Assembly (NCBI GenBank): GCA_000156115.1 | Contig: DS995276.1 | Span: forward strand, 2,132,226-2,196,225 | Length of the DNA stretch: 64,000 nucleotides | Origin: Rhodobacteraceae bacterium HTCC2083 | GTDB taxonomy: Bacteria > Pseudomonadota > Alphaproteobacteria > Rhodobacterales > Rhodobacteraceae | Reading direction: 5' to 3' | Shown here: positions 23,386-37,991 of the stretch, in pieces | How the letters are laid out: every line of letters starts with the position of its first letter | Numbering within the stretch: the stretch's first letter is position 1 | Program-made: the position numbers and the translations under genes | The notes under the pieces: generated by a model | Database searches by the model: none | What the model was told of the DNA's origin: nothing | What the model saw: only the letters and a program-made list of their open reading frames with translations

Positions 23386-24558
23386 CTAGACAACCTGCGG
23401 CAAACGATAAGCAGGGGGCGTGTTTCTGCTACGTCCAGAACAGACGGCACCGTCGATCACCGTCATGCCAACACCGGGGAGGTTTCCAAGTTGAACGCTT
23501 TCCAGAATGTTCTTGCCGGGTGCGTGCTGTGCCTGATCCATCAGCACAAAGTCCGCGCACATTCCTCTTTCTATAAGCCCCGTATCGAGGTTGCGTTGTC
23601 GTGATGTGTTGCCATTGCCAAAGCAAAAGGCGATTTCGGCAGGAACATTGCCAAAGGCGGATAGCATAGCGATCATTCGCAAAATTCCGAGCGGTTGCAC
23701 GCCGGAGCCTGCCGGACCGTCCGTGCCAAGGATCACTTGATCCAGTTTACCCAACTCACGCGCCGTGTTCACAGTCAAAACCGCAGCGCGTTCATTTCCG
23801 TTATGCACAATCTCAAACGCCGCTTTGCAGCTTTCGCAGAGGCAAATGATCTGATCGTCGGGCAGGGCCGAATGCCCCCCATTGATATGTCCAATCACAT
23901 CCGTACCGGTTTCCATCACCATATCAGCGTCGATCAAACCAGAGCCGGGAATCGATGGCCCGCCTGTGTGGATCGTACTTTGTATGCCGTATTTACGCGC
24001 CCAGCCGACCATTTGCTGCGCGGTTTTACCGTCTTTAACGGTACCAAGGCCGACTTCGCCCAGCAGGGTTACGCCCGCATCTGCGAGGTCTTTGAAATCT
24101 TGCTCGACCATCCCATGCTCAATAACGGGCGCTCCTGCGTGGACTTTCATGCCGGAAGGGCGGAAGTTTTCGTACCAACGCTGCGCCGCGATGGCCATGG
24201 CTTTTAGGCCGACAACATCCTTGGGACGCCCCGGCATATGGACTTCACCAGCCGAAATTAGGGTCGTTACTCCGCCATGCAGCGTGCTGTCGATCCAGTG
24301 TAGCTGCTGTTGGCGTGGGGTGTAATCGCCAATCACAGGATGGATATGGCTGTCGATCAAACCTGGTGCCAGCGTGACGCCATTTGCGTCGATGACCGTG
24401 TCTGCGCCCTCGAGGTTCATATCGGCCTCGCGACCCCACCCCGCGATTTTGCCAGCGTAGGCGATGATGCAATCAGCCTCGTAGATGGGCGCTTCCATCT
24501 TGCCCGATAGCATCAGGCCGATATTGCGAATGACAAGTTTCTGTGCGGAATCTGACAT
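23386..24558 (-). CDS. ena: enamidase-like amidohydrolase
   Basis: 390-residue metal-dependent amidohydrolase. It resembles the enamidase of Eubacterium barkeri, which opens 1,4,5,6-tetrahydro-6-oxonicotinate to 2-formylglutarate and ammonia. Shared features I recognise: SHIH (His71, His73), MPGRPKDVVGLKA, GEVGLGT (Glu168), IHTGG (His197), GHINGG (His224), GTDGPAGSG (Asp280) and the C-terminal SRNTPPAYR. Start chosen at 24558 because AAGGAG lies 6 bases before it; the frame extends 7 codons further. It is divergent from the molybdenum hydroxylase and reductase genes that would supply its substrate. Another cyclic enamide is possible. Confidence 0.82.
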   Translation of the reverse strand: MSDSAQKLVIRNIGLMLSGKMEAPIYEADCIIAYAGKIAGWGREADMNLEGADTVIDANGVTLAPGLIDSHIHPVIGDYTPRQQQLHWIDSTLHGGVTTLISAGEVHMPGRPKDVVGLKAMAIAAQRWYENFRPSGMKVHAGAPVIEHGMVEQDFKDLADAGVTLLGEVGLGTVKDGKTAQQMVGWARKYGIQSTIHTGGPSIPGSGLIDADMVMETGTDVIGHINGGHSALPDDQIICLCESCKAAFEIVHNGNERAAVLTVNTARELGKLDQVILGTDGPAGSGVQPLGILRMIAMLSAFGNVPAEIAFCFGNGNTSRQRNLDTGLIERGMCADFVLMDQAQHAPGKNILESVQLGNLPGVGMTVIDGAVCSGRSRNTPPAYRLPQVV

Positions 24559-24629
24559 GATCGCTCCTTTCGAATTCATCTGAACGCTAACAGATGCGGT
24601 GTTTCGATCAAGAGGGGGCAGGAAAGGAT

Positions 24630-24669
24630 TTGACAGAATCCTCGCCGCAATATTCTATTCGTATACAAA
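24630..24669. promoter_or_regulatory. divergent promoter/operator region with GTATAC palindrome
   Basis: Between the divergent enamidase-like and FAD-subunit genes. TTGACA at 24630-24635 is a good -35 for the plus strand, with a weak TATTCT -10 at 24651 (15-base spacing). TTCGTATACAAA at 24658-24669 is a near-palindrome centred on GTATAC, a form used by GntR-type regulators, and would overlap the start region. Not confirmed by any regulator gene next to it. Confidence 0.35.
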
Positions 24670-24687
24670 CAAGTTTTGAGGGCTGTT

Positions 24688-25518
24688 TTGGAATATCTAA
24701 CACCTATGTCGCTTGACGATGCCCTTGCCGCGCTGGACGCGGGTGAACTCAGCATTATCGCGGGGGGCACGGATTGGTATCCGGCTCAGGGCGAATGTCC
24801 GATCGAGTGCGATATTCTGGACGTGACGCGGATTGCGGCTCTGCGCGGCATTTCAAAAGCCAAAGACGGTTGGCGCATCGGCGCGGCCAGTACATGGAGC
24901 GATGTGATCGCAGCCGACTTGCCCGCAGCTTTCGATGGGTTGAAAGCTGCTGCGCGTGATGTTGGCTCAGTTCAAATCCAAAACGCAGGCACGATTGCGG
25001 GAAATCTCTGTAACGCGTCCCCCGCCGCGGATGGGGTGCCGCCTTTGCTTGCGCTCAAAGCGTTGGTTGAAATTTGCAGCGCGGAAGGGTGTCGCGTTGT
25101 GCCTTTGGGCACCTTCATTACTGGCGTGCGACGCGTGGCTTTGGACAAGGGCGAAATGGTGACTGCGGTGATAATCCCAGAAACCTCGGCAGCGCTCAAA
25201 AGTGCTTTCGTGAAATTGGGCGCGCGCAAATATCTGGTAATTTCCATCGCTATGGTTGCGGTGACATGCGCGTTGCGCGACGGCGTCTTGAGTGATGTAC
25301 GGATTGCGGTCGGATCCTGCTCCCCTGTGGCGAAGAGACTCTCAGCACTCGAGGCAGCTTTGGAAAATCAAACACTCGCGCAAACCGACGCGATACTTGC
25401 GGAGGCGTGTCTTTCTGCCTTAGCGCCTATCGATGACGTGCGCGGATCTAAAGAGTACCGCGTCGATGTGGTTGCCACTTTAATCGCACAAGCCCTGCGG
25501 GAGGCAAGCCATGGATAG
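24688..25518 (+). CDS. molybdenum hydroxylase FAD-binding subunit (CoxM/NdhF-like)
   Basis: 276-residue FAD subunit of a xanthine-dehydrogenase-family hydroxylase. It passes electrons from the Fe-S clusters to the acceptor. FAD-binding loops are visible as IIAGGTDWYP (residues 23-32) and GTIAGNLCNASPAADG (101-116). I chose TTG 24688 (EYLTPMSLDDAL) because GAGGG lies 5-6 bases upstream; a TTG at 24676 is in frame but lacks a ribosome site. It overlaps the next gene by 8 bases. With the neighbours it most likely hydroxylates a pyridine carboxylate at C6. Confidence 0.85.
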   Translation: MEYLTPMSLDDALAALDAGELSIIAGGTDWYPAQGECPIECDILDVTRIAALRGISKAKDGWRIGAASTWSDVIAADLPAAFDGLKAAARDVGSVQIQNAGTIAGNLCNASPAADGVPPLLALKALVEICSAEGCRVVPLGTFITGVRRVALDKGEMVTAVIIPETSAALKSAFVKLGARKYLVISIAMVAVTCALRDGVLSDVRIAVGSCSPVAKRLSALEAALENQTLAQTDAILAEACLSALAPIDDVRGSKEYRVDVVATLIAQALREASHG

Positions 25519-28240
25519 GCGAAGCGAGACCGAACTGATCGGATTTACTTTGAATGGCGACGCCGTTCAAAGTGCGTCACCTGGTAGCGCACGGCTCAGC
25601 GCGGTTTTGCGCGAAGAGTTAAACGCCAAAGACGTCAAGGTTGGCTGTAACGCGGGCGATTGTGGAGCCTGCACTGTCTTGATTGATGGGGCACCTGTAT
25701 GTGCCTGCCTTACGTCGACCGCTCAAGCCAAGGGCCGCGATGTCCAAACACTGCGCGGTGTGGCACCGGATATTCTCGCGCGTTTGCAACAGAGTTTCAC
25801 CGCGCATCAAGCTGCGCAATGCGGGATTTGTACGCCGGGTATGATTGTTAGCGCTGCGGCTTTGTTGCGAGACGTGCCCAGCCCCAACGTCGCACAAGTT
25901 CAAGATGCTTTGGGTGGCGTGTTGTGTCGCTGTACGGGGTATCGTAAAATTATTGATGCGGTTGTTGCGGTTGGTGCTGGTATTCCTGAGGTTGACGCTA
26001 CGGGGGCTATCGGTGACGCCATCGCGCGGATCGACGGACAAACCAAGGTCGATGGATCAGAGCGTTTTGGCGATGATGTTGCGCCAGATGGAGCTTTGGT
26101 GGCGCTTGTGATCCGTTCACCTTATCCGCACGCAGTGTTTGAGTTTGGTGATCTCGAAGCTGTACGCAAGATCGACGGGATCGAAGCGGTCCTAAGTGCA
26201 AAAGATGTCCCCGGCGACAATCTATTCGGTACAATTCCGGGTTTCATTGACCAACCAGTCTTTGCCGAAACCCAGGCGCGTTTTAAAGGCGAAGCCGTGG
26301 CCTTAGTGATCGGGGAGGCGGATACGATTGCGGCGTTCAGGATTGGTGATTTTCCAGTGACATGGACGCAATTGCCTGCGGTCCAAGACGTCACAGAGGC
26401 GCAAGCGAATGATGCGCCGCAGCTTCACACGGGCCATAAGAATAACTTAATGTGCGGCGGCTTCGTTGCCCATGGCGATATGGATGCGGGTCTCGCTGAG
26501 GCGGATATCGTTTTGAGTGGGAGCTTTGAGACATCCTTTGTCGAGCACGCCTATATCGAACCCGAAGCAGGTTATGCGGAAATGGTCGAGGGCCGTCTGC
26601 ACCTACATATCTGCACCCAAAGCCCTGTGATGAACCAAGAGGCGCTCGCCAACATTCTTGCGTGCGACGAAGATAATATCCGCATCGTTCCTACCGCTGT
26701 TGGCGGTGGCTTCGGCTCTAAGCTGGATCTGACAGTACATCCCTATGTTTGCCTTGGTGCGATGGTGACGGAGCGTCCCGTGCGAATGTGTTATTCGCGT
26801 GTGGAGAGCATGGCGACGTCAACCAAACGCCACCCCGGGCGGATCGAGATCAAAGGCGGAGTGCGCCATGATGGCACGCTGACGGGTCTGCGTTTTGTTG
26901 GGGATTTCAACACGGGTGCTTATGCCAGCTGGGGTCCGACAGTTGCCAATCGCGTACCTCTGCATGCTTCAGGCCCCTACAGGATACCGAACTATCGCGC
27001 TCAGTCGAAAGGAATTTACACCCATTGCCCGCCCTCTGGTGCGTTTCGTGGTTTTGGAGTCCCCCAATCGGCCATCGCACAAGAGAGCCTGTTCGATGAA
27101 CTCGCCGCAGCCGTCGGCATGGATGCGCTGGAGTTCCGCATTTTAAACGCGCTCGATAACGGTGTGCCAACCGTGTCTGGCCAAGTGTTCGAACAAGGGG
27201 TTGGCGTAAAGGCCTGCCTTGAAGCGCTGCGTCCTGCTTGGGAAAGCGGCAAAGCAGAGTGTGTTCAGTTCAACGCAAGCAGCCATAATCTAAAGCGCGG
27301 CGTGGGGATCGCTGCGGGCTGGTATGGCTGCGGGAATACCTCCATGGCGAACCCGTCGACGATCAAATGCGGATTACGTCCAGATGGTACGTTGGTCTTG
27401 CATCAGGGTGCGGTTGATATCGGCCAAGGCTCCAACACAGTGATTACACAGATCTTTGCGCAAGCGTTTGGCGTTGCGGTGGATCAAGTCGCGTTAGTCG
27501 GGGCGGATACTGACATCACTCCCGATGCTGGCAAAACATCCGCCTCGCGTCAGACGTTTGTCACTGGCAATGCAGCGAAACTTTCGGGTGAAAGCCTGCG
27601 TCGCCAAGTACTGACTTTGGTGAACGCAGCTGAGGATGACCAGATTGTGCTGGGGGATGGCAGCATCGAAATGAGCGGTGCGCACAAGATTGATCTTTCG
27701 CGCATGGACGTGGGCGAGGACGGTTATGTGATGCGTGCGGTGGCGAGTTATGATCCGCCTACAGAGCCGCTTGATGAGAATGGCCAAGGCGTGCCTTACG
27801 CGCAGTTCGGCTATGCCGCGCATCTCGTGGTCGTCGAAGTCAATACCAAGCTTGGCACGATCAACCCCATCAATATCGTGGCTGCGCATGATGTGGGCCA
27901 AGCGATCAATCCGTTGCTTGTTGAAGGACAGGTTCAAGGCGGTGTTGCGCAAGGGCTCGGCATGGCGCTGATGGAAGAATTTATTCCAGGTCGCACTGAC
28001 AATTTGCACGACTATTTGATCCCGACGATTGGCGATGTTCCCCCGATTGAGACGGTGATTGTCGAAGAGCCGGACGCGCATGGCCCGTTTGGGGCAAAGG
28101 GTTTGGGTGAGCACGCGCTTATTCCAACGGCTCCGGCCATATTGAACGCGGTAAACAACGCCACTGGCGTGCGTTTGCGCCATGTTCCCGCCTTGCCGCA
28201 CCGCGTGCGCGCTGCTTTGAAGGAGGCTGGGTATGAGTGA
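25511..28240 (+). CDS. fused 2Fe-2S / molybdopterin hydroxylase subunit (nicotinate-dehydrogenase-like)
   Basis: 909-residue fusion of the small Fe-S and large Mo subunits of the xanthine dehydrogenase family. The plant-type [2Fe-2S] domain has Cys46, 51, 54 and 66; the second [2Fe-2S] uses Cys104, 107, 139 and 141. The Mo domain follows from about residue 165, with GGGFGSK near 399 and the catalytic Glu867 in GAKGLGE. The substrate would be water-hydroxylated at a ring carbon. Reductase and enamidase neighbours suggest nicotinate or a relative rather than xanthine. It overlaps both flanking genes by 8 bases. No XdhC-like maturation factor is adjacent. Confidence 0.88.
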   Translation: MDRRSETELIGFTLNGDAVQSASPGSARLSAVLREELNAKDVKVGCNAGDCGACTVLIDGAPVCACLTSTAQAKGRDVQTLRGVAPDILARLQQSFTAHQAAQCGICTPGMIVSAAALLRDVPSPNVAQVQDALGGVLCRCTGYRKIIDAVVAVGAGIPEVDATGAIGDAIARIDGQTKVDGSERFGDDVAPDGALVALVIRSPYPHAVFEFGDLEAVRKIDGIEAVLSAKDVPGDNLFGTIPGFIDQPVFAETQARFKGEAVALVIGEADTIAAFRIGDFPVTWTQLPAVQDVTEAQANDAPQLHTGHKNNLMCGGFVAHGDMDAGLAEADIVLSGSFETSFVEHAYIEPEAGYAEMVEGRLHLHICTQSPVMNQEALANILACDEDNIRIVPTAVGGGFGSKLDLTVHPYVCLGAMVTERPVRMCYSRVESMATSTKRHPGRIEIKGGVRHDGTLTGLRFVGDFNTGAYASWGPTVANRVPLHASGPYRIPNYRAQSKGIYTHCPPSGAFRGFGVPQSAIAQESLFDELAAAVGMDALEFRILNALDNGVPTVSGQVFEQGVGVKACLEALRPAWESGKAECVQFNASSHNLKRGVGIAAGWYGCGNTSMANPSTIKCGLRPDGTLVLHQGAVDIGQGSNTVITQIFAQAFGVAVDQVALVGADTDITPDAGKTSASRQTFVTGNAAKLSGESLRRQVLTLVNAAEDDQIVLGDGSIEMSGAHKIDLSRMDVGEDGYVMRAVASYDPPTEPLDENGQGVPYAQFGYAAHLVVVEVNTKLGTINPINIVAAHDVGQAINPLLVEGQVQGGVAQGLGMALMEEFIPGRTDNLHDYLIPTIGDVPPIETVIVEEPDAHGPFGAKGLGEHALIPTAPAILNAVNNATGVRLRHVPALPHRVRAALKEAGYE

Positions 28241-29714
28241 AACGGCACGCGTGAAACCCGAGAAAATCCGCTGTGATGCTTGCCCCGTGATGTGTTTTAT
28301 CGCTGAAGGAAAAGCTGGGGCCTGTGATCGCTATGCCAATCATGCAGGTGAATTGGTGCGCCTCGATCCTTTAACAGTGATCGAGCGCGGCGCGCCTGCG
28401 GTAGCTTTTCTTGATCAAGGGGAGAACGCACAGGATTGGGATGGTGACATCCTTCAAGGCAAGCGCACGTTTGTGACTGCTGTCGGCGCAGGCACGACCT
28501 ATCCAGATTATAAACCTGCGCCCTTTATCGTCAGCCAAGAGGTCGATGGCGCGGACATGGTGACCGTCGTAACCGAAGGGATTTATTCCTACTGCGGCGT
28601 GAAAGTGAAAATCGATACGGATCGCTTCATCGGCCATGAACGTGCGGTCGTGCGGGTTAAAGGCGAGGCGATTGGCCATGTGATGACGTCTGAATATGGC
28701 TCCAAAATGCTGTCGCTTGGTGGGGTTGAGCACCTCACAGGGAGCACCAAAGCGGAAGGGCGCGTGACCTGTGATGCGCTGATGAACCTGTGCAATCGCG
28801 AAGCGGTGACGCTGCAAGTTGATGACGGCGCGGAGGTCGTTGTACAGGCGGGCCAAGCGCCGATCATCAACGATGTGCGTGAAAAACTGATGCGCGTTGG
28901 TTGTGGATCCGCCGCAATCGGGATGTTCGCCAAACAATGGGAGCCACATGTGGACGAAGTTATCGTTGTCGATGATCACATCACTGGCGTGTTGACGGAA
29001 CATGAAGCAGGCAAGCAACTTGATATGCGTCCCTCCGGCATCAAGATCCAAGGGCGTCGCTCTACCCCCGGCCGGTATTTTCAAGTTGCCGAGCCGGGCA
29101 CAGGGTGGGGTGGCACAGATGTGGAAGATCCGCTAACCATTCTGAAACCTGCGGATGCGAAAAAGGCTTGGGCGGGACTACGCCTTTTAATGGTCTCCAC
29201 TACGGGGGAGCAATGGGCCTATTACGAGCTGGATGAGGATCTCGTGCCCCAGCCTGCCGAAATTTCTGAGGCGCTTCGCATCAGCGCGGATCGGATTGCG
29301 GAAAATTGTGAGCCTTCCTTGTGTTCCGTGCTCTTTATGGGTGGTGCAGGGGGGTCTTTGCGCGCGGGGGTCACGGAAAACCCTGTACGCCTGACGCGAT
29401 CTGTGAAGGATGCGTTGACCTATGTGTCATGCGGCGGCGCAGAGGCTTATGTTTGGCCAGGAGGCGGGATCACTGTGATGGTGGATGTCATGGAGATGCC
29501 GACAAACTCCTTTGGCTATGTGCCAACACCAGCTCTGGTCGCTCCGATAGAGTTCACATTGCGCCGTGAGGATTACAGCGCGCTCGGCGGTCACATGGAA
29601 CATATCCAAGAAGTGGCCTCGGTGTTGACGCCCGAAGTGCGCAAGGTGAAGCCCATAGCGACCCAACCCGACCCTCATCAAGCGCATCGTAGCAAACGTG
29701 AAGGGCGTGGGTGA
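28233..29714 (+). CDS. hnr: 6-hydroxynicotinate reductase-like Fe-S flavoprotein
   Basis: 493-residue protein matching the 6-hydroxynicotinate reductase family. In Eubacterium barkeri this enzyme reduces 6-hydroxynicotinate to 1,4,5,6-tetrahydro-6-oxonicotinate and carries Fe-S clusters and a covalently bound flavin. The N-terminal cysteine set C14-x2-C17-x3-C21-x9-C31 (CDACPVMC...GAC) fits a [4Fe-4S] cluster; other Cys lie at 121, 180, 187, 224, 359, 364 and 400. The canonical ApbE target motif (S/T-G-A-S/T) is absent; the nearest match is LTGST at 168-172. Overlaps flanking genes by 8 bases and 1 base. Electron donor unknown. Confidence 0.85.
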   Translation: MSETARVKPEKIRCDACPVMCFIAEGKAGACDRYANHAGELVRLDPLTVIERGAPAVAFLDQGENAQDWDGDILQGKRTFVTAVGAGTTYPDYKPAPFIVSQEVDGADMVTVVTEGIYSYCGVKVKIDTDRFIGHERAVVRVKGEAIGHVMTSEYGSKMLSLGGVEHLTGSTKAEGRVTCDALMNLCNREAVTLQVDDGAEVVVQAGQAPIINDVREKLMRVGCGSAAIGMFAKQWEPHVDEVIVVDDHITGVLTEHEAGKQLDMRPSGIKIQGRRSTPGRYFQVAEPGTGWGGTDVEDPLTILKPADAKKAWAGLRLLMVSTTGEQWAYYELDEDLVPQPAEISEALRISADRIAENCEPSLCSVLFMGGAGGSLRAGVTENPVRLTRSVKDALTYVSCGGAEAYVWPGGGITVMVDVMEMPTNSFGYVPTPALVAPIEFTLRREDYSALGGHMEHIQEVASVLTPEVRKVKPIATQPDPHQAHRSKREGRG

Positions 29715-30544
29715 TGCAAGTTCAGCGCGCTCTGATTTCTGGGAATCGTTTGCACTTGCAGCATGGGCCGATTGATTTGGTCATTGGTGTTGATCGAGCG
29801 CGGGAGGCCGCATTTGACGCTGCAGAGGCGCGTTTGAACACGGTTCTCTCTGAGCTGATGTGCGAGATTTCGCTTTTGCGCCAATGCGACGGACCCGCAC
29901 CCAAAGGGGCGATTGCGCGCAAAATGTGGAACGCGGCTCAGGCGCATGAAGGCTTTGTCACACCCATGGCTGGCGTCGCTGGAGCTGTTGCGGAAACTGT
30001 TCTGGATGCAGTGTTAAGCGTCTCGGACTTGAGGCGCGCCTATGTGAACAACGGCGGCGATATCGCGCTTTATCTCAGGTCTGATGCGACTTTTGATGTC
30101 GCAATGGCAGGGACTGATGGTGCAGCACTTGGCAAAATTACGCTCGACGTGCACAGTAAAGTGCGCGGGATCGCGACAAGCGGGCAAGGCGGGCGAAGCC
30201 TGTCTTTCGGGATTGCGGACAGCGTCACTGTTTTGGCCGAAACTGCGAGCGCAGCGGACGTTGCCGCGACCCTGATTGCTAGCGCTGTTGATATTGTGGA
30301 TCATCCACAGATCGCTCGCGTGCCCGCGCAAACTGTATGCGATGATACTGATCTTGGGCAGCGCAGGGTTGTTGTGGGCGTTGGTGATCTAAGCGCGCAA
30401 GATATCGATCGCGCTTTGCAAAATGGTGAGCAATGCGCCCGGAACATGCAACGCCAAGGCCTTATCCGATCCGCAAGCTTGCATTTGCGCGGGCAAAGTA
30501 GACAAGTAGATCTGAACTCAGAAAAGGTGCTGGAACATGCCTGA
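29714..30544 (+). CDS. UPF0280 protein, ApbE superfamily
   Basis: 276-residue protein of the UPF0280 family, related to the flavin transferase ApbE. NNGGDIAL at residues 112-119 and GIATSG at 152-157 match the ApbE GGD and ATSG motifs, and a GIADSVTV segment then AADVAATL (about 166-187) matches the ApbE C-terminal part. The ApbE metal-ligand HHIxDP stretch is not seen. ATG 29714 overlaps the reductase stop by one base (GTG 29711 possible). Function of the family is not established; a role in covalent flavin attachment to the adjacent reductase is inference. Confidence 0.82.
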   Translation: MQVQRALISGNRLHLQHGPIDLVIGVDRAREAAFDAAEARLNTVLSELMCEISLLRQCDGPAPKGAIARKMWNAAQAHEGFVTPMAGVAGAVAETVLDAVLSVSDLRRAYVNNGGDIALYLRSDATFDVAMAGTDGAALGKITLDVHSKVRGIATSGQGGRSLSFGIADSVTVLAETASAADVAATLIASAVDIVDHPQIARVPAQTVCDDTDLGQRRVVVGVGDLSAQDIDRALQNGEQCARNMQRQGLIRSASLHLRGQSRQVDLNSEKVLEHA

Positions 30545-31121
30545 CGTCGTCGTGCGCAAGATCGCAACGGTTATTGAAGAAGTCTTTCACGAAGGCGGGC
30601 CACCCGCCAATGGGCCGCAAAAACGTGGGGCTGTTGTTGCGGTGATCGCCAATCCCTATGCAGGGGAATATGTCGAGGATATTCAACCCTTTATGGAGGA
30701 TCTGAAGCCGCTTGGCCTTGAGATGGCGCAAAAGCTGATTGATGCGCTGGGTGGTGATGCGTCTGTGATTGAAGGGTATGGTAAAGGCTCTATCGTCGGC
30801 ACCGCAGGCGAGTTGGAACATGGTGCGCTTTGGCATGCACCTGGGGGCTATGCGATGCGAGAGCTTTTGGGTGATGCGAAGGCGATTGTGCCCTCCACGA
30901 AGAAAGTGGGTGCTGCGGGCGTGCGTCTTGATGTGCCGATCACGCATATCAATGCCTCCTACGTGCGTGGGCATTTTGATGCGATGGAAGTTGGAATGAA
31001 CGACGCGCCGCGTGCCAATGAATTGGCCTTTGTTTTGGTGATGAGTACGGGTGCACGCGTCCATGACCGCGCGGGGGGCCTGGCTGCTAAAGATATTAAA
31101 GGGGAAGATGGTCTACGATGA
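30537..31121 (+). CDS. amino acid synthesis family protein (DUF1185), copy 1
   Basis: 194-residue soluble protein of the PF06684 'amino acid synthesis' (DUF1185) family, whose function is not established. Conserved blocks shared with copy 2: VIANPYAGEYVED, YGKGSIVG with GELEH, PSTKKVG, a LDVP-x2-H pair, YVRGHFD, and NDAPRANE. It overlaps UPF0280 by 8 bases and copy 2 by 4 bases, so it belongs to the same operon as the ring hydroxylase and reductase. It may catalyse a step after ring opening, but that is inference. No metal or nucleotide-binding motif is obvious. Confidence 0.85.
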   Translation: MPDVVVRKIATVIEEVFHEGGPPANGPQKRGAVVAVIANPYAGEYVEDIQPFMEDLKPLGLEMAQKLIDALGGDASVIEGYGKGSIVGTAGELEHGALWHAPGGYAMRELLGDAKAIVPSTKKVGAAGVRLDVPITHINASYVRGHFDAMEVGMNDAPRANELAFVLVMSTGARVHDRAGGLAAKDIKGEDGLR

Positions 31122-31702
31122 GTGCTGATATTCGCAAGCTCGCCGTTTGGGTTGAGGAAACACACCAAGAAGCAGGGCGTACTGTCGCGCCTGCGACTCG
31201 CAAAGCGGTAGCTGTCGCAGTCATCGCGAACCCGTTTGCGGGGAAATACGTCGAGGATCTCTCGCCTTTGATGGAGATTGGCGCAGAACTTGGTGAAATG
31301 TTGGGAAAACGGTGTGTAGAAGCGCTGGGCATCAGACCGGATCAAGCGGAAAGCTACGGCAAAGCTGCGATGGTTGGTGAGAACGGCGAGTTGGAACACG
31401 CGGCGGCGTTACTGCACCCGAAAATGGGTGCCCCATTACGCAATGAAGTAGAAAAAGGTGCGGCTTTGGTGCCGTCTTCAAAGAAAATGGGCGGACCGGG
31501 GCAGGACTTGGATGTGCCGCTAGGCCATAAAGATGCCGCCTATGTGCGCTCGCATTTTGATGGCGTCGAAGTGCGATTGAATGACGCGCCGCGTGCGCAT
31601 GAAATTTTGGTGGCGATTGCGGTGACAGATAGTGGACGTCCCCTGCCACGTGTTGGCGGTCTTGCGCATAGCGATGCGATTGGCAAAGACGGGCTGCGGT
31701 GA
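31118..31702 (+). CDS. amino acid synthesis family protein (DUF1185), copy 2
   Basis: 194-residue paralogue of the preceding gene with roughly 40-45 percent identity by eye. Shared blocks include VIANPFAGKYVED, YGKAAMVG with GELEH, PSSKKMG, LDVPLGH, YVRSHFD and NDAPRAHE. The divergent N-terminal half (positions 20-35) and the region near residue 100 suggest separate roles or a heteromer. Tandem arrangement with a 4-base overlap points to duplication in place. Last gene of the 24.7-31.7 kb operon; convergent with the marR gene 24 bases on. Function unknown. Confidence 0.83.
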   Translation: MSADIRKLAVWVEETHQEAGRTVAPATRKAVAVAVIANPFAGKYVEDLSPLMEIGAELGEMLGKRCVEALGIRPDQAESYGKAAMVGENGELEHAAALLHPKMGAPLRNEVEKGAALVPSSKKMGGPGQDLDVPLGHKDAAYVRSHFDGVEVRLNDAPRAHEILVAIAVTDSGRPLPRVGGLAHSDAIGKDGLR

Positions 31703-31726: not shown

Positions 31727-32152
31727 TCAGAGTTTGCCGAGCAGCGCTAAAAGGCGCTCAGCCTCGCGCGCACTTAGTTTTTTTGTGGTTTGCTGTGAAA
31801 TCAATTGGGCGCGCTTGACGGCACTTTCGCAAAGGCACGTCCTTGTTCTGTCAGCGAAATCTCTAGCCGCCGCAAATCTGTCTTTGAAGGCGTGCTTTGT
31901 ACCCAACATTTGCCGCGCAACCGATCGACCACGCCTTTGGTTGTCGCGGCATCCATCCCCAACCCGTCGCCCGAGGTGGTTTTGCGACAAAGACCCATCA
32001 AAATAGAGCCGCGCGAGGATAGCGAATTGCGTTGGGGTCGCCTCTGGCATGTGTTCTGCAAACAGCTCTAAGTGTTTTTGATTGGCCAAGCGCAGTCGAA
32101 AGCCGATCTGGTCCTCGAGCCTGTACGTACTTTCCAGCTTGTCCTGAGCCAT
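31727..32152 (-). CDS. MarR-family regulator with two apparent compensating frameshifts
   Basis: The open 141-codon frame matches MarR at its ends only. Residues 1-62 (ending SLSQNHLGR) and 110-141 (AVKRAQLISQQTTKKL) are MarR-like, but residues 63-109 are not. The missing piece, MDAATTKGVVDRLRG to LTEQGRAFAK (recognition helix and wing), is encoded in another frame over about 31829-31960. One extra base near 31960-31972 and one missing base near 31824-31829 would restore a normal 141-residue protein. Either sequencing error or a degraded regulator. Divergent from the Rieske/importer operon, which it would normally control. Confidence 0.72.
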   Translation of the reverse strand: MAQDKLESTYRLEDQIGFRLRLANQKHLELFAEHMPEATPTQFAILARLYFDGSLSQNHLGRRVGDGCRDNQRRGRSVARQMLGTKHAFKDRFAAARDFADRTRTCLCESAVKRAQLISQQTTKKLSAREAERLLALLGKL

Positions 32153-32195: not shown

Positions 32196-32213
32196 TTGTT
32201 TGACAACGAACAA
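32196..32213. promoter_or_regulatory. candidate MarR operator TTGTT-N8-AACAA
   Basis: Inverted repeat in the gap between the divergent marR and Rieske genes, about 50 bases upstream of each start. MarR proteins bind palindromes of about this size between divergent genes. A TTGACA at 32199-32204 may serve as a -35 for the plus-strand operon, so binding would block transcription. No good -10 is visible. Confidence 0.4.
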
Positions 32214-32265
32214 GTTTTTGGTGCCAGATTGGGATGTCTGCCAAGACCGAAGGGGAAGTCTCGAT

Positions 32266-33333
32266 ATGCCGTTTGTGCGCAACGCGTGGTACGTGGCCGG
32301 TTGGTCTAAAGATTTCGGCGAAGACTTGCGCGCGATTACCATCACAGAGCAAAACTTGGTGATGTTTCGCTCCACTGACGGCCAGATTGTTGCGCTGGAG
32401 GATCGCTGTCCACATCGGCTCTTGCCGCTCTCTAAGGGTAAGCGCATTGGTGATACGGTGCAATGCGGCTATCACGGCATGACTTTCGGAACGGACGGCA
32501 AATGCGTGCGGGTTCCGGGGCAAGATAACTTGCCCGCGTCTGCCTATGTGGAGACATTTCCCGTCCATGAGGCGCATGGGATCGTCTGGATTTGGCCCGG
32601 CGAAGCGGCGCTTGCTGCGGACACACCAGTGTTTGATTTGCCCGAGTTCAGCGACCCGAATTGGCATGCGCATCACGGCGACGGGCTCCATCTCAACGCT
32701 AATTATCTGAACGTGGCTGAGAACCTTGTTGATCCCGCGCATGTAAGTTTTGTGCACCCCACGACGCTTGGAAGTGCGGCTTCTGAGAACGTTCCTGTGC
32801 ATGTGTCGACCTCTGGGGATCAGATCGTTGCGTGGCGTTGGATCAAAGATTCAGCACCGGTTGGATTTTTCCAGAGCTTCGGTGATTTCACGGGTAATGT
32901 GGATCGCTGGCACTACTACTATTTGCACCTTCCCAGCACAGCTGTAATTGATTTCGGCAGTGCCGCGGTTGAGGCGAAGCTCGAAGAGGATGAGCGCGAT
33001 AAAGGCGTGCGCATCTTTGCTCTGCACTTTGTTACACCAGTGACTGAGGACTACACGATTGATCACTGGATGCACCTGCGCAACACGGCGGTTGGTGACG
33101 AAGACGCCTCTGCGAATATGGACAAGATGTTTCGCATCGCCTTTGCCGAGGACAAAGAGGTGTTAGAGGCCATCCATATCGAAGAACAGCGCCCGCAAAA
33201 GCGCAAACCCATCAGAATTGCCATCGACAAGGGACCTAATGTGTATCGCAAAAGAATACGCGACCTTGTGGAGGCGGAGGCGACCGAAGATCTCGGTGCG
33301 CCGCTACATCCGACCTTTGTGCAGCACGACTAA
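32266..33333 (+). CDS. Rieske non-heme iron oxygenase, alpha subunit (VanA-like)
   Basis: 355-residue oxygenase. The Rieske [2Fe-2S] ligands are Cys48, His50 (CPHR) and Cys67, His70 (CGYH). The mononuclear iron facial triad is His159 and His164 with an acidic ligand outside this segment, and Asp156 is the bridging residue (DPAHVSFVH). The sequence is closest in feel to vanillate demethylase and related demethylating Rieske enzymes, so O- or N-demethylation is plausible. Start at ATG 32266 (MPFVRNAWYV), with AGGGGA 10 bases upstream; the frame runs to 32200. No reductase/ferredoxin partner is adjacent. Probably co-transcribed with the importer 39 bases downstream. Confidence 0.88.
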   Translation: MPFVRNAWYVAGWSKDFGEDLRAITITEQNLVMFRSTDGQIVALEDRCPHRLLPLSKGKRIGDTVQCGYHGMTFGTDGKCVRVPGQDNLPASAYVETFPVHEAHGIVWIWPGEAALAADTPVFDLPEFSDPNWHAHHGDGLHLNANYLNVAENLVDPAHVSFVHPTTLGSAASENVPVHVSTSGDQIVAWRWIKDSAPVGFFQSFGDFTGNVDRWHYYYLHLPSTAVIDFGSAAVEAKLEEDERDKGVRIFALHFVTPVTEDYTIDHWMHLRNTAVGDEDASANMDKMFRIAFAEDKEVLEAIHIEEQRPQKRKPIRIAIDKGPNVYRKRIRDLVEAEATEDLGAPLHPTFVQHD

Positions 33334-33372: not shown

Positions 33373-34581
33373 ATGAAAAGAAAGACATTTTTGAAGAGCC
33401 TTGTCGGCGCAGCTGCGATTGCTGCGGTTGGCTTGCCTGCACTTGCGGAAGACACGATCAAGATTGGTGAGATCAACCACTACAAGCGTCTCGCTGCGTT
33501 TGCGGGGCCTTACAAGCTTGGTATCGAGATGGCGCTGGAAGAGGTTAACGCCGCTGGTGGTGTGTTGGGCAAGCCGCTTGAATTCATCTTCCGCGATGAC
33601 CAAGGAAAGCCGGGCGAAGCGGTGAAAATCGCTGAAGAACTGATGACGCGCGAAGGCGCTGTGATGCTCACGGGCACGATCCTGTCTAATGTGGGTTTGG
33701 CGATTAGTTCGCTCGCGGCGGAGAAGAAGTACGTCTATCTTGCGTCCGAGCCGCTCGCAGATGCGATCACTTGGTCTAAGGGCAATGACTATACGTTCCG
33801 TTTGCGCTCTTCCACATATATGCAAGCAGCGATGTTGGCTGAGGAAGCCGCAAAGACTGATGCAATCCGCTATGCAACCATTGCGCCGAACTACGCGTAC
33901 GGCAAAGACGCGGTCGCTGCGTTTAAGAAAGCTTTGACCAAGCTTAAGCCCGAAGTGGAGTTTGTGGCAGAGCAGTGGCCCGCGTTGTTCAAGATCGACG
34001 CAGGTGCAGAAGCGCAAGCGATTGAGCGAGCAAAGCCAGATGCGATCTACAACGTAACCTTTGGTGGTGATCTTGCGAAGTTTGTTCGGGAGGGCGGCAC
34101 ACGTGGGCTCTTTGAAGGGCGTAATGTCTATGGCCTTTTATCTGGTGAGCCTGAATATATGGATCCACTTGGTGATGAAGCACCTGAGGGCTGGATTGTG
34201 ACAGGCTACCCTTGGTCCGAAATCACTGAAGGATCGGGCAAAGTTTTCGTTGATGCGTATATGGCGAAATACGACGATCACCCGCGCATCGGATCGTTGG
34301 TGGGCTACATGACGGTGCAATCTATCGTGGCTGTTCTTGAAAAAGCAGGCTCTACCGACAGTGAAGCGATCCGCGCCGCGTTTGCAGATCTTCCTGTAAG
34401 CACGCCCGTTGGTGACATAAAGTTCCGCTCGCAAGATCATCAAGCGACGATGGGCGCATACGTTGGCACAATCGCTTTGAAAGATGACAAAGGCACGTTG
34501 GAAAGCTGGGTCTATAAGGATGGCGCTGATTACACGCTGTCTGACGAGGAAGTCATGAAATTGCGCGGTTCTGGTAACTAA
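33373..34581 (+). CDS. branched-chain-type ABC transporter substrate-binding protein
   Basis: 402-residue periplasmic receptor of the LivJ/LivK type (type I fold). A signal peptide is visible (KRKTFLKSLVGAAAIAAVGLP, cleavage at ALA/ED) followed by IKIGEINHYKRLAAFAGPYK. The ribosome site AGAGAGGAAAAG is strong. First gene of the importer that continues with a fused permease and two ATPases, behind the Rieske gene. Members of this family also bind aromatic acids, so a pyridine carboxylate or methylated derivative is plausible here; this is inference from context. Confidence 0.92.
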   Translation: MKRKTFLKSLVGAAAIAAVGLPALAEDTIKIGEINHYKRLAAFAGPYKLGIEMALEEVNAAGGVLGKPLEFIFRDDQGKPGEAVKIAEELMTREGAVMLTGTILSNVGLAISSLAAEKKYVYLASEPLADAITWSKGNDYTFRLRSSTYMQAAMLAEEAAKTDAIRYATIAPNYAYGKDAVAAFKKALTKLKPEVEFVAEQWPALFKIDAGAEAQAIERAKPDAIYNVTFGGDLAKFVREGGTRGLFEGRNVYGLLSGEPEYMDPLGDEAPEGWIVTGYPWSEITEGSGKVFVDAYMAKYDDHPRIGSLVGYMTVQSIVAVLEKAGSTDSEAIRAAFADLPVSTPVGDIKFRSQDHQATMGAYVGTIALKDDKGTLESWVYKDGADYTLSDEEVMKLRGSGN

Positions 34582-34609
34582 GCGCACGAACTTTTTAAAA
34601 AACTCTTCA

Positions 34610-34642
34610 CGCGGCCCACATATGTGTGGGCCGTGGTTTCTT
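34610..34642 (+). terminator. hairpin between binding-protein and permease genes
   Basis: CGGCCCACA and TGTGGGCCG form a perfect 9-bp stem around TATG (34612-34633), followed by TGGTTTCTTATTT. It lies about 30 bases after the binding-protein stop. It should act as a partial terminator or mRNA stabiliser, giving more receptor than permease. Confidence 0.6.
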
Positions 34643-34661
34643 ATTTCCTAAAGGTTAAGTC

Positions 34662-36521
34662 ATGGGTCTCTTTATCGCGCAAATCCTTACAGGGCTCGCC
34701 AATGCGAGTGCGCTGTTCATGGTCGCCTCTGGTCTTTCGCTGATTTTTGGTGTCACGCGCATCGTGAATTTCGCGCATGGCTCTTTTTATATGTTGGGCG
34801 CGTATGTCGGCTATTCCTTCATGCAGGTTTTGCCCGGTGCTTGGGGTTTTTGGACATCAATTTTGCTTGCGGGGCTTATCGTTGGACTTATCGGGATCGT
34901 CGTGGAAATGCTGGTCTTGCGGCCCGTCTATAAAGCGCCTGAGCTCTTCCAACTCGTCGCCACATTCGGTGTGATCCTTGTGATCCAAGATCTTACGCTG
35001 CTCGTTTGGGGGGCAGATGATTTCTTGGGCCCGCGCGCGCCGGGCCTTAAGGGCATCATTCGGATCATGGGGGAGCCCATCCCAAAATACGATCTCGCGC
35101 TGATTGCTTTGACGCCCTTTGTCGCCTTCGCTTTGTGGTGGTTGATCACTAAAACGCGCACAGGGATTCTGGTTCGCGCAGCCACGCAAGATCGCGAAAT
35201 GGTCGGCGCGTTGGGCGTGAACCAAGCGTGGTTGTTCACAGGTGTTTTCTTTCTGGGTTGCGCTCTTGCGGGTCTTGGCGGCGCGGTACAATTGCCCAAA
35301 GGTGGTGCTGATTTGTTAATGGATTTCAATATTCTCAGCGCGATTTTCGTGGTCGTGGTGATTGGCGGCATGGGGAGTTTGCCCGGCGCATATGTGGCTG
35401 CTGTTTTGATTTCTGTTCTCAATGTGTTTGGGGTGAATTACCTGCCGCAATCCACGCTTGCTTTGATGTTCGTTGTTATGGTCGTCGTGCTGATTTTCCG
35501 CCCGTTCGGCTTGTTTGGGCGCGAAGAAGTTGCGGGTGAGCATGGCCAAGTCGGCGAACCTGAACGTCCTATCAAACCCGCAGGGCAGAGCGCACGGATG
35601 ATCGTGATGCTGGGGTTGGGTCTGCTGGCACTTTTGCCGCTGGTGGGCGATAGTTTCATTCAAGTTCTTATCACTGACATCGCGATTTTCTGTCTCTTCG
35701 CCGCATCTTTGCATTTTCTCTTGGGGCTTGGTGGACTTGTCTCATTTGGGCATGCAGCATACTTCGGCGGCGGCGCTTATGCAGCGGCGCTACTTGTAAC
35801 GTACGCAGGCACGCCGATGGAGCTAGCGCTGATCCTTGCTCCGCTTGCGGCGGGTCTCACGGCCATCATTTTCGGCTGGGTCTGTCTGCGCCTGACCGGC
35901 GTTTATTTCGCAATGCTAACGCTTGCCTTTGCGCAGCTTCTTTGGTCGCTGGTCTTCCAATGGGGCGATTTCACAGGCGGTGACGATGGCCTTGTGGATA
36001 TTTGGCCGTCTGAGTGGGCGTCGGGGACGACGACATTCTATTACCTCGCGCTGGTGCTCTGCATCGGTGGGATCATCATACTGCGCCATACCGCGCATTC
36101 GCCTTTCGGCTACGCGTTACGCGGCGCGCGGGACTCGGCACGCCAAGCAGAAGCGACGGGCATCAACACCAAGCATGTGCAATGGGTTGCTTTCGGTTTC
36201 GCAGGGGCGATGGCGGGGATCGCGGGAGGGCTGTTTGTCTTCTCCAAAGGGTCAATCTTCCCAAATGAATTAGAAATCGCGCGCAGTTTTGATGCGTTGA
36301 TTGTCGTTTTCCTTGGTGGGGTTAAAACGCTCGCAGGGGGCGTCGTAGGTGGGGCAGCGCTAGAGGGTGCAAAAGACTACATCACGCGCTTCGAATACTG
36401 GCGCTTGCTCTTGGGCTTGCTCATCATCTTTGTCGTGATTCTTGCACCGGACGGCATTGCAGGAACTTTGCGCAAATGGGCCGAGAAGATTGGCCTTATG
36501 AAGCGGGAGGATCGAGTATGA
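34662..36521 (+). CDS. fused branched-chain-type ABC permease (LivH-LivM)
   Basis: 619-residue fusion of the two permease subunits normally encoded apart. Residues about 1-290 are LivH-like (GLSLIFGVTRIVNFAHGSFYM) and about 315-610 LivM-like (HFLLGLGGLVSFGHAAYFGG, GVYFAMLTLAFAQL). A charged linker near residues 285-310 joins the halves. The ATPase contact loops (EAA-like) are visible in both. It overlaps the first ATPase gene by 4 bases. Together with the two ATPases it forms one inner-membrane importer. Confidence 0.92.
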   Translation: MGLFIAQILTGLANASALFMVASGLSLIFGVTRIVNFAHGSFYMLGAYVGYSFMQVLPGAWGFWTSILLAGLIVGLIGIVVEMLVLRPVYKAPELFQLVATFGVILVIQDLTLLVWGADDFLGPRAPGLKGIIRIMGEPIPKYDLALIALTPFVAFALWWLITKTRTGILVRAATQDREMVGALGVNQAWLFTGVFFLGCALAGLGGAVQLPKGGADLLMDFNILSAIFVVVVIGGMGSLPGAYVAAVLISVLNVFGVNYLPQSTLALMFVVMVVVLIFRPFGLFGREEVAGEHGQVGEPERPIKPAGQSARMIVMLGLGLLALLPLVGDSFIQVLITDIAIFCLFAASLHFLLGLGGLVSFGHAAYFGGGAYAAALLVTYAGTPMELALILAPLAAGLTAIIFGWVCLRLTGVYFAMLTLAFAQLLWSLVFQWGDFTGGDDGLVDIWPSEWASGTTTFYYLALVLCIGGIIILRHTAHSPFGYALRGARDSARQAEATGINTKHVQWVAFGFAGAMAGIAGGLFVFSKGSIFPNELEIARSFDALIVVFLGGVKTLAGGVVGGAALEGAKDYITRFEYWRLLLGLLIIFVVILAPDGIAGTLRKWAEKIGLMKREDRV

Positions 36522-37297
36522 GTGCGGTTCTTGAGGTCAAAGGATTGAGCAAAGCGTTTGGCGCAATTCAAGCGGTAGATGATGTTTCGTTTGAGCTTCA
36601 AAAAGGCGAGTTGCTGGCGCTGATCGGTCCGAATGGTGCAGGCAAAAGCACGTGTTTTAATATGCTTATGGGGCAACTCAAATCGTCTGCTGGGACGGTG
36701 ACCTTGAACGGCAGAGACCTTAAGGGATTGAAACCACGCCAGATTTGGCGGCTTGGGGTCGGGCGCACGTTTCAGATTACGGGGACGTATGCGTCGATGA
36801 CAGTGATCGAGAATGTGCAGATGGCGCTGATCTCGCATCATAAGAAGATCTATTCACTTTTGCCCCGCGCGTATCAGATGTACCGCGATGAGGCGATGGG
36901 ATTGCTCGAGCTCGTGGGGATGGCGGATCAATCGGAACGTCACTGCGCGGTGCTCGCGTATGGTGATCTCAAGCGCCTCGAACTGGCGATTGCGCTAGCG
37001 CACAATCCGACGCTTTTATTGATGGATGAACCCACCGCCGGCATGGCCCCCGCCGAGCGGATTGCGCTGATGCAGCTCACTGCTGATATCGTGGATAGTC
37101 GCGGCGTGAGCGTTTTGTTTACAGAGCATGACATGGACGTCGTTTTCGCCCATGCGCACCGTGTTATGGTCCTTAATCGTGGTGCTTTGATCGCGAATGG
37201 TTCTGTCGATGACATCCGCAATGACGACCGTGTGCGAGAGGTTTATCTTGGTGGCGGCACGCTCTTTAAGCACGACGGGGAGAGCGCACATGCTTGA
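36518..37297 (+). CDS. branched-chain-type ABC ATPase (LivG-like)
   Basis: 259-residue ATPase. Walker A GPNGAGKST lies at residues 37-45, and Walker B LLLMDEPTAGMAP follows. The signature appears as LAYGDLKRLE, a common LivG-type variant. The C-terminal tail shows the family's VREVYLG ending. Start at ATG 36518, with GGGAGG 6 bases upstream and a 4-base overlap with the permease; a longer frame from 36476 is not used. Energises the importer with the second ATPase. Confidence 0.93.
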   Translation: MSAVLEVKGLSKAFGAIQAVDDVSFELQKGELLALIGPNGAGKSTCFNMLMGQLKSSAGTVTLNGRDLKGLKPRQIWRLGVGRTFQITGTYASMTVIENVQMALISHHKKIYSLLPRAYQMYRDEAMGLLELVGMADQSERHCAVLAYGDLKRLELAIALAHNPTLLLMDEPTAGMAPAERIALMQLTADIVDSRGVSVLFTEHDMDVVFAHAHRVMVLNRGALIANGSVDDIRNDDRVREVYLGGGTLFKHDGESAHA

Positions 37298-37991
37298 AAT
37301 CAAAGGCGTGAACAGTTTCTACGGCAAGGCGCATGTTTTGAATGACCTGAGCTTTGATGTCGAACGTGGGCAAGTGGTAGCGCTCTTGGGACGCAATGGG
37401 GCGGGCAAAACGACGACGATGAAATCTGTGATGCAGCTTGTTGTGCCGCAAACGGGGTCGGTGACGTACCAAAGCGCTGACATTACGCGTATGCCACCGC
37501 ATAAAGTCGCGAAGATGGGCCTGGGTTATGTCCCTGAAGAGAGGCGCATTTTCACCGACCTAACCGTGATGGAGAACCTTGAAGTCGGGCGTCAGCCCGA
37601 GCGCGAGGGGACGGTTACATGGTCCGAAGATATGCTGTTTGATATGTTCCCCAACCTGGCGGAGAGACGCACCAATCGGGGCAAAGAGTTATCGGGAGGC
37701 GAGCAACAAATGCTGACTATTGCGCGTACGTTGATGGGCAACCCAAGCCTCATTCTTCTGGATGAGCCGTCCGAGGGTATTGCGCCCGTGATTGTCGAAG
37801 AAATGGCACGGGTCATTTTGCGTCTTAAAAAAGACGGGTTGACGGTGCTTTTGTCTGAGCAAAACTTACACTTTGCGCAGGCCGTCGCCGACCGTGTTGT
37901 GATCATTGAAAGTGGTACGGCGAAATACAAAGGCACCCTTGCGGAACTGAACGCGCAGCCAGAGGTGCGCGACACTTATCTTTCGGTTTGA
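37290..37991 (+). CDS. branched-chain-type ABC ATPase (LivF-like)
   Basis: 233-residue ATPase, the LivF partner. Walker A GRNGAGKTT lies at residues 34-42, signature LSGGEQQML and Walker B LILLDEPSEGIAP follow, and the short C-terminus is typical of LivF. The start ATG at 37290 lies within the end of livG (8-base overlap) after GGGGAGAG. Last gene of the importer. No terminator hairpin with a U-run follows. Confidence 0.93.
   Translation: MLEIKGVNSFYGKAHVLNDLSFDVERGQVVALLGRNGAGKTTTMKSVMQLVVPQTGSVTYQSADITRMPPHKVAKMGLGYVPEERRIFTDLTVMENLEVGRQPEREGTVTWSEDMLFDMFPNLAERRTNRGKELSGGEQQMLTIARTLMGNPSLILLDEPSEGIAPVIVEEMARVILRLKKDGLTVLLSEQNLHFAQAVADRVVIIESGTAKYKGTLAELNAQPEVRDTYLSV

Follow-up and report, generated by a model that had tools for sequence, protein, structure and literature searches.

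Introduction

Reductive breakdown of nicotinate by way of 1,4,5,6-tetrahydro-6-oxonicotinate was found in Eubacterium barkeri and then in the aerobic Azorhizobium caulinodans, as stated in the accessible part of PMC3511419, where the nicotinate cluster is also given as conserved in A. caulinodans, Bradyrhizobium japonicum, Rhodopseudomonas palustris and SG-6C, and A. caulinodans is described as continuing via glutarate; E. barkeri and A. caulinodans are both given for the reductive route in the accessible part of PMC9304392 as well. The present study deals with a unit of genes for such a route, comprising a molybdenum hydroxylase, a 6-hydroxynicotinate reductase (Hnr) and an enamidase, in a window of 64,000 nucleotides (the whole stretch of DNA analyzed: contig DS995276.1, positions 2,132,226 to 2,196,225, from Rhodobacteraceae bacterium HTCC2083, whose assembly comprises 4.02 Mb in 5 contigs). 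A preliminary description of this DNA had regarded the reductive route as surprising in an aerobic alphaproteobacterium, although both of those sources already report it for A. caulinodans, and it is thus not new in such a host. The source organism is itself presumably aerobic and marine, as read from its kinship to Planktotalea (Rhodobacteraceae): among the matches listed, the nearest named relative of the window Hnr comes from Planktotalea sp. HE327_NSB060 and shares 97% identity with it. The Azorhizobium route is reported to have been elucidated by Kitts et al. (1989 and 1992); in the study of Alhapel et al. (2006), nine Proteobacteria reportedly proved to carry the first three genes. With the core pathway known, marine Rhodobacteraceae mainly extend its known map, and the accessory set of genes matters more.

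Results and Discussion

A probable first half of a reductive nicotinate pathway

Very probably, the first half of the reductive route for nicotinate is complete in the window. In the proposed mechanism, an Ndh-type molybdenum hydroxylase would convert nicotinate to 6-hydroxynicotinate, the Fe-S flavoenzyme Hnr would reduce the latter to 1,4,5,6-tetrahydro-6-oxonicotinate, and a binuclear-metal enamidase would hydrolyze this cyclic enamide to 2-formylglutarate and ammonia. All three genes, already recognized in the preliminary description as enamidase-like, molybdenum hydroxylase and reductase-like, were located at the same coordinates in the list of open reading frames (ORFs). The reading is based on gene identity, conserved active-site residues, gene order and co-occurrence, and chance is excluded because of the enamidase match (E = 7e-104) and of the 31 further Hnr matches at 61-78% identity detailed below; the nature of the substrate and the order of the reactions are predicted from these features.

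The enamidase gene (23386..24558, minus strand), encoding an amidohydrolase predicted to open the ring of 1,4,5,6-tetrahydro-6-oxonicotinate, occupies an ORF with limits 23386-24579, and its start at 24558 is preferred since GGAG directly precedes the ATG. In the search of all solved structures its product matched the E. barkeri enamidase (2VUN) over residues 14-396 without gaps, with 43% identity (166/383 residues), while three other solved structures were matched at E about 1e-4. Across 47 aligned rows, formed by the window protein, 2VUN and 45 relatives, 92 residues of the window enamidase are invariant, including in all rows H78, H80, H204, H231, E175 and D287, which we take to be metal-centre residues (H78 and H80 forming the HxH motif) with roles transferred from the amidohydrolase family. 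Alignment to the E. barkeri enzyme is thus full-length and ungapped, with the candidate active-site residues kept. Among the three motifs that the preliminary description had remembered as shared with that enzyme, 2VUN contains GEVGLGT and SRNTPP unchanged but has FPGRPKD in place of MPGRPKD. The assignment as a putative binuclear-metal enzyme acting on 1,4,5,6-tetrahydro-6-oxonicotinate is well supported.

The hydroxylase is encoded on the plus strand by an NdhF-like gene for the FAD subunit of nicotinate dehydrogenase (24688..25518; PF00941 and PF03450 above cut-off) and by a gene for a fused NdhS-NdhL-NdhM-like subunit with [2Fe-2S] and molybdopterin parts (25511..28240). Starts at 24676 or 24688 are candidates for the former, the second being favored because GAGGG precedes the TTG at 24688; ribosome-binding sequences are therefore present upstream of both start codons, 24558 and 24688, that had been chosen beforehand. 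When each molybdenum half of the fused chain was searched alone against solved structures, the E. barkeri nicotinate dehydrogenase ranked first, 3hrd_A for one half (273.7 bits; runner-up, 152.7) and 3hrd_B for the other (213.8 bits; runner-up, 156.3), its lead over other solved proteins being at least 57 bits in each. Tyr13 of the medium subunit NdhM of E. barkeri is modelled as binding the nicotinate ring nitrogen in the accessible part of PMC5746545; the window residue Y605 aligns with it, and the WYG motif at this site is present in 59 of 60 hydroxylase relatives. An Ndh-type hydroxylase predicted to convert nicotinate to 6-hydroxynicotinate is well supported, and the 2VUN, 3hrd_A and 3hrd_B matches jointly give good support to the earlier proposal that enamidase and hydroxylase correspond to E. 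barkeri-type nicotinate steps.

The hnr gene (28233..29714, plus strand) was assigned by the identity of its product to a strongly conserved Hnr family. Hnr was found in 32 genomes of a phylum-wide sample of 398, the other 31 matches, one of them split in two pieces, sharing 61-78% identity with the window protein; one broken copy shares 53%. Relatives were further drawn from 80 named loci, which represent the best 80 of at least 588 Hnr relatives, closest to the window, and among which E. barkeri is absent. Identities amount to 62-97% for the 21 relatives selected for alignment, 64-82% for 49 sequences from named loci, and 67-70% for the Hnr of four Bradyrhizobium loci (L120-L122 and L125). 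All 50 sequences compared share eight cysteines, including those of an N-terminal CxxCxxxCx9C motif. In the accessible part of PMC3511419, an identity of 42% is given between E. barkeri Hnr and its homologue in SG-6C, together with the degradation of nicotinate by SG-6C, so that the identification of the third gene as an E. barkeri-type reductase is supported by way of this homologue. Zero matches were obtained for Hnr against Pfam and NCBIfam at E 0.001, and no meaningful match among solved structures (best E, 0.43). Its AlphaFold model is middling (mean pLDDT, 74), and Foldseek returned no match to it below E 0.001. Weak GcvT-like Foldseek matches (three at prob 0.25-0.35) and a weak Pfam match to GCV_T_C at E 0.12 are not evidence of such a fold.

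Regarding the fate of the product, the preliminary description had found enzymes handling 2-formylglutarate absent and had left the question open. It is partly answered by the glutarate route of Azorhizobium together with a glutaryl-CoA dehydrogenase in the source genome, on account of which the E. barkeri 2-formylglutarate enzymes are not expected. The carbon would most likely follow the Azorhizobium route, with decarboxylation and oxidation to glutarate, glutarate being then processed through glutaryl-CoA to acetyl-CoA. The dehydrogenase, selected from 17 acyl-CoA dehydrogenase matches by characteristic motifs, scores 626 bits with 3gnc and 562 bits with 1sir, its best match being 4w9u, named acyl-CoA dehydrogenase (707 bits). 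A class III CoA-transferase had been considered its neighbor; the transferase adjoins another acyl-CoA dehydrogenase instead.

Several observations weigh against the pathway as read here. Enamidase at 60% identity or more is present in only 18 of the 32 Hnr genomes of the sample, and glutaryl-CoA dehydrogenase has a place in the breakdown of lysine and tryptophan too. The tie of Hnr to the E. barkeri enzyme would go by way of the SG-6C and Bradyrhizobium homologues, and eight invariant cysteines are too few for three cysteine-only Fe-S clusters, the number that the E. barkeri Hnr is said to contain. Since the tyrosine aligned with Y605 is also found in the Desulfovibrio aldehyde oxidoreductase 1dgj, this residue is not specific and is alone no proof of nicotinate use. 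In addition, a search with the entire fused chain ranks aldehyde oxidoreductases highest (385 and 372 bits), ahead of 4-hydroxybenzoyl-CoA reductase (314 bits) and the large subunit of nicotinate dehydrogenase (273 bits). This ranking, together with NCBIfam names for the molybdenum subunit such as xanthine dehydrogenase and aldehyde oxidoreductase (all below cut-offs), might favor a generic xanthine/aldehyde-oxidase cluster lying beside an unrelated amidohydrolase, the nicotinate assignment being then an echo of annotation. Nevertheless, the separate subunits of nicotinate dehydrogenase account for its lower rank with the whole chain, and it comes first for each half searched apart; the enamidase match to 2VUN covers the full length without gaps, and association of these genes with Hnr recurs in many loci. 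The half-by-half searches and the 2VUN match thus largely refute this generic alternative, to which we attach hardly any probability.

Ring opening and hydroxylase types across genomes

To the 80 named loci, 18 further stretches were added (98 in total), 14 of which were picked because their genome lacked an enamidase at 60% identity or more; 76 loci reach 19 kb or more and are here termed long, 58 of them being named. Of the 58 long named loci, the enamidase is present in 43 and a HyuA/HyuB pair in 7; the two never occur together, and 8 loci lack both (Fisher P of 2e-5, uncorrected for kinship). Over all 76 long loci, in which most of the added stretches had been picked for having no enamidase, the corresponding figures are 45, 12, 0 and 19, HyuA alone being seen in 3 of the 19. 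The pair lies near Hnr-UPF0280-DUF1185 at L104:13860-17689 and also in L100, L101, L112, L113, L119, L126, L175, L178, L181, L182 and L185. It scores 491 and 306 bits with the caprolactamase families NF050156 and NF050157, whose cut-offs are 1000. This pattern makes it likely that HyuA/HyuB can also open the reduced ring, by an ATP-dependent lactam opening that replaces the enamidase; if true, a caprolactamase-like pair would represent a second solution to the opening of the same ring.

The hydroxylase also varies. Scored by the FAD subunit, Ndh is the only type in 56 of the 76 long loci and a molybdenum hydroxylase bearing cytochrome c domains the only one in 14; both occur in 2, and neither in 4. 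In the loci of the second kind, many of them rhizobial or from Bradyrhizobium, the cytochrome c type replaces Ndh near the same Hnr, as at L121:5722-9252; it presumably fits the membrane-linked nicotinate hydroxylase of Azorhizobium.

Further variation was recorded around the core. A ferredoxin-NADP reductase-like gene is found near the cluster at L078:20377-21183, as well as in clustered ORFs of 20 of the 80 named loci; the L078 protein matches PF00970 and PF00175, together with NF008178 at 132 bits, below cut-off, and might provide a route for electrons to Hnr. Behind the unit of Roseovarius aestuarii (L059:15410-21358) stand genes for a transporter of the TAXI TRAP type and a phosphoribosyltransferase of the NadC type, as well as an ORF whose domains are those of a guanylate kinase and a glycosyltransferase. 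The genes of the unit recur in another order in L093 and L102, from Granulosicoccus and its kin (gammaproteobacteria), where DUF1185, Rieske or UPF0280 genes stand upstream of ndhF-ndhLMS-hnr; these loci hint at transfer of the gene set between classes.

UPF0280 and DUF1185 proteins

Beyond the three genes of the preliminary description, the unit comprises UPF0280, two DUF1185 genes, a MarR-like gene, a Rieske oxygenase gene and a Liv transporter. UPF0280 and the DUF1185 pair are regular members of the nicotinate unit, and the roles considered for them below are predictions from sequence and context.

The UPF0280 protein (29711..30544, plus strand; NF003322, 326 bits, cut-off 290) shows an ApbE-like fold and is proposed as a flavin-loading partner of Hnr. 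Matches above cut-off were obtained in 32 of the 398 sampled genomes, a list identical to that of the Hnr genomes, and in none of the other 366; two more genomes gave weak matches of 20-22 bits, far below cut-off. Below cut-off, two methanogens of the control set also contain members of the wider UPF0280 group, for which other roles are therefore possible. UPF0280 is found in 94 of the 98 stretches, and the genomes of the remaining four carry it elsewhere, as seen in a search with a fifth genome as positive control: a little beyond the stretch on the same contig for L093, in surroundings that briefly overlap the stretch for L103, and without overlap for L099 and L123, the L123 copy reading through one stop. 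UPF0280 follows hnr in 73 named loci, with its start 200 bases or less from the hnr stop, and the two genes overlap in 32 of them (starts chosen by script); in L102 and L115 it lies upstream of hnr and apart from it.

The UPF0280 model is of high confidence (pLDDT, 94). Its top solved Foldseek match, 2o34, is an uncharacterised protein, and ranks 3-11 are held by FmnB/ApbE flavin transferases (E 5e-5 to 9e-4; prob 0.99-1.00), for which query TM-scores reach only 0.36-0.45 with an rmsd of 10-12 Å. Profile comparison with the E. coli Ftp gave P = 7e-5 at a probability of 64%, and against the PF02424 profile UPF0280 remained unmatched up to E 10. Catalysis in ApbE/Ftp proteins is attributed to a Ser-His-Asp triad in the accessible parts of PMC12052999 and PMC8906456, and the latter reports loss of activity in a His-to-Ala mutant of the triad of an ApbE-family protein. 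S157 and D183 of UPF0280 align with the triad Ser and Asp and are invariant in 63/63 sequences, but the His is gone, the aligned position being L in 42, M in 13, F in 5, R in 2 and C in 1 of the 63, and the His loop is deleted. This absence counts against an ordinary ApbE mechanism.

With its ApbE-like fold and a genome distribution identical to that of Hnr, UPF0280 is proposed as a candidate cofactor-loading partner of Hnr, an ApbE relative that would bind FAD and help to mount the flavin on Hnr. The stronger form of this proposal, a dedicated flavin-attaching or flavin-loading enzyme of ApbE fold that has lost the usual His and serves one cytosolic client, seems rather unlikely, though worth naming in view of (i) the covalently bound flavin that E. 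barkeri Hnr reportedly contains (Alhapel et al. 2006), (ii) the adjacency to hnr in most loci, (iii) the identical genome distribution, and (iv) the search of the source genome for PF02424, which showed no ordinary ApbE. PF02424 is present in 5 of 8 other Hnr genomes examined (in one as a short piece only), so the absence of an ordinary ApbE is not general. An ApbE-type attachment motif was looked for in Hnr; the near match to DxxTG (D248-T251-G252) is followed by V-L and not by A-T as in the ApbE-type motif, and it was not adopted. The term UPF0280 was not found in the literature searched. If the stronger form is true, the UPF0280 family would gain a function and a second kind of flavin transferase would be defined; the one-to-one tie between an ApbE-fold protein and the Fe-S flavoenzyme Hnr makes a testable case for a new flavin-attachment factor.

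The two PF06684/DUF1185 genes follow on the plus strand, copy a at 30537..31121 (233 bits) and copy b at 31118..31702 (249 bits; E = 5e-101 with 2qtp), and at least one such gene is present in 89 of the 98 stretches. A role of DUF1185 in amino-acid metabolism has been suggested from neighboring Liv transporters in the accessible part of PMC2954203; the Liv transporter near DUF1185 here may instead be the nicotinate pathway's own transporter. A further DUF1185-like protein, recognized by eye, is encoded elsewhere in the source genome at G000:C5:231363-231965 (L143:5864-6466). Its neighbors are an ORF resembling alpha/beta-hydrolases and a match to CoA-transferases, and DUF1185 therefore probably has a place outside nicotinate use as well.

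A proposed supply module and the substrate

Downstream of the DUF1185 genes lies a MarR-like regulator of weak assignment (31727..32152, minus strand; NF041230, 27 bits, below the cut-off of 230), for which a Pfam scan gave zero matches and which has a homologue near Hnr in 32 of the 80 named loci by ORF clustering. It is followed on the plus strand by a Rieske oxygenase with a VanA_C domain (32200..33333; PF00355 and PF19112) and by a Liv-type ABC transporter (33373..37991), composed of a binding protein (33373-34581; PF13458), a fused permease (34662-36521) and two ATPases (36476-37297 and 37197-37991), coordinates being ORF limits and all components other than the binding protein being named from sequence. 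The oxygenase and the transporter would form an optional supply module at the front end of the pathway.

What this module might supply was weighed against its distribution and its nearest relatives. A Rieske match occurs in 13 of the 98 loci; 12 of these, at 61-96% identity, directly precede the gene for the binding protein, and the thirteenth (L087) shares 36% identity in a stretch with no matching binding protein. The transporter is 51-61% identical to relatives in Bradyrhizobium Hnr loci, and the nearest solved structure of the Rieske protein is a demethylase, dicamba O-demethylase (140 bits), the methylxanthine N-demethylase NdmA standing further down (71 bits). Together with the VanA_C domain, these features point to trigonelline (N-methylnicotinate) as the main natural substrate, imported by the ABC transporter, N-demethylated by the Rieske enzyme and then passed to the nicotinate unit; trigonelline is also the simplest upstream substrate for a pathway starting at nicotinate, and this proposal adds to the reductive pathway without replacing any part of it. 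On the other side, no reductase or ferredoxin gene adjoins the Rieske gene in the window, a substrate cannot be read from so broad a class as the Rieske oxygenases (saxitoxin-pathway and carbazole oxygenases are among the 22 solved matches), an orthologue was not seen in 86 of the 98 loci, some of whose stretches are short, and no report joining Rieske enzymes, trigonelline and nicotinate breakdown was found in the literature searched, mostly without subscription journals. Considering both sides, trigonelline appears a little short of an even prospect. If true, such a front end would link a marine osmolyte to the reductive nicotinate pathway.

The unit might instead act on a pyridine carboxylate other than nicotinate, for instance picolinate or its N-methyl derivative homarine (N-methylpicolinate), by means of paralogues of the nicotinate enzymes; picolinate and homarine had both been named in the preliminary description. 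Homarine is termed a ubiquitous marine metabolite in the accessible part of PMC13390433, and the Rieske gene is present, its presence being the sole support within the locus. Yet enamidase and hydroxylase match nicotinate enzymes best, Hnr is close to the Bradyrhizobium Hnr, whose kin SG-6C degrades nicotinate, and the accessible part of PMC13390433 ties homarine breakdown to Mgd and not to the genes of the window. Homarine was consequently rejected as leading substrate, other pyridine carboxylates are improbable as a class, and nicotinate, possibly derived from trigonelline, fits better.

Comparison with known systems

A close likeness is to the nicotinate clusters of Azorhizobium caulinodans ORS571, Bradyrhizobium and SG-6C, which share aerobic hosts and the tetrahydro-oxonicotinate and glutarate route (accessible part of PMC3511419). 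The locus differs from them in that many rhizobial and Bradyrhizobium loci have the cytochrome c-type molybdenum hydroxylase and not Ndh, and in that the Rieske gene was not seen within about 10 kb in the four Bradyrhizobium loci compared. With the E. barkeri cluster it shares homologous first three enzymes, the reductase by way of SG-6C, whereas a single chain combines the NdhS, NdhL and NdhM parts in the window. The later steps of E. barkeri, which lead from hydroxymethylglutarate to pyruvate and propionate, are not expected in the window organism. Caprolactamase CapAB is resembled, below cut-offs, by the HyuA/HyuB proteins of enamidase-free loci, a pair that does not occur in the window. 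Finally, UPF0280 shares with ApbE/FmnB proteins (PF02424) the fold and the Ser and Asp of the triad, and differs from them in having no PF02424 match, no catalytic His and no His loop.

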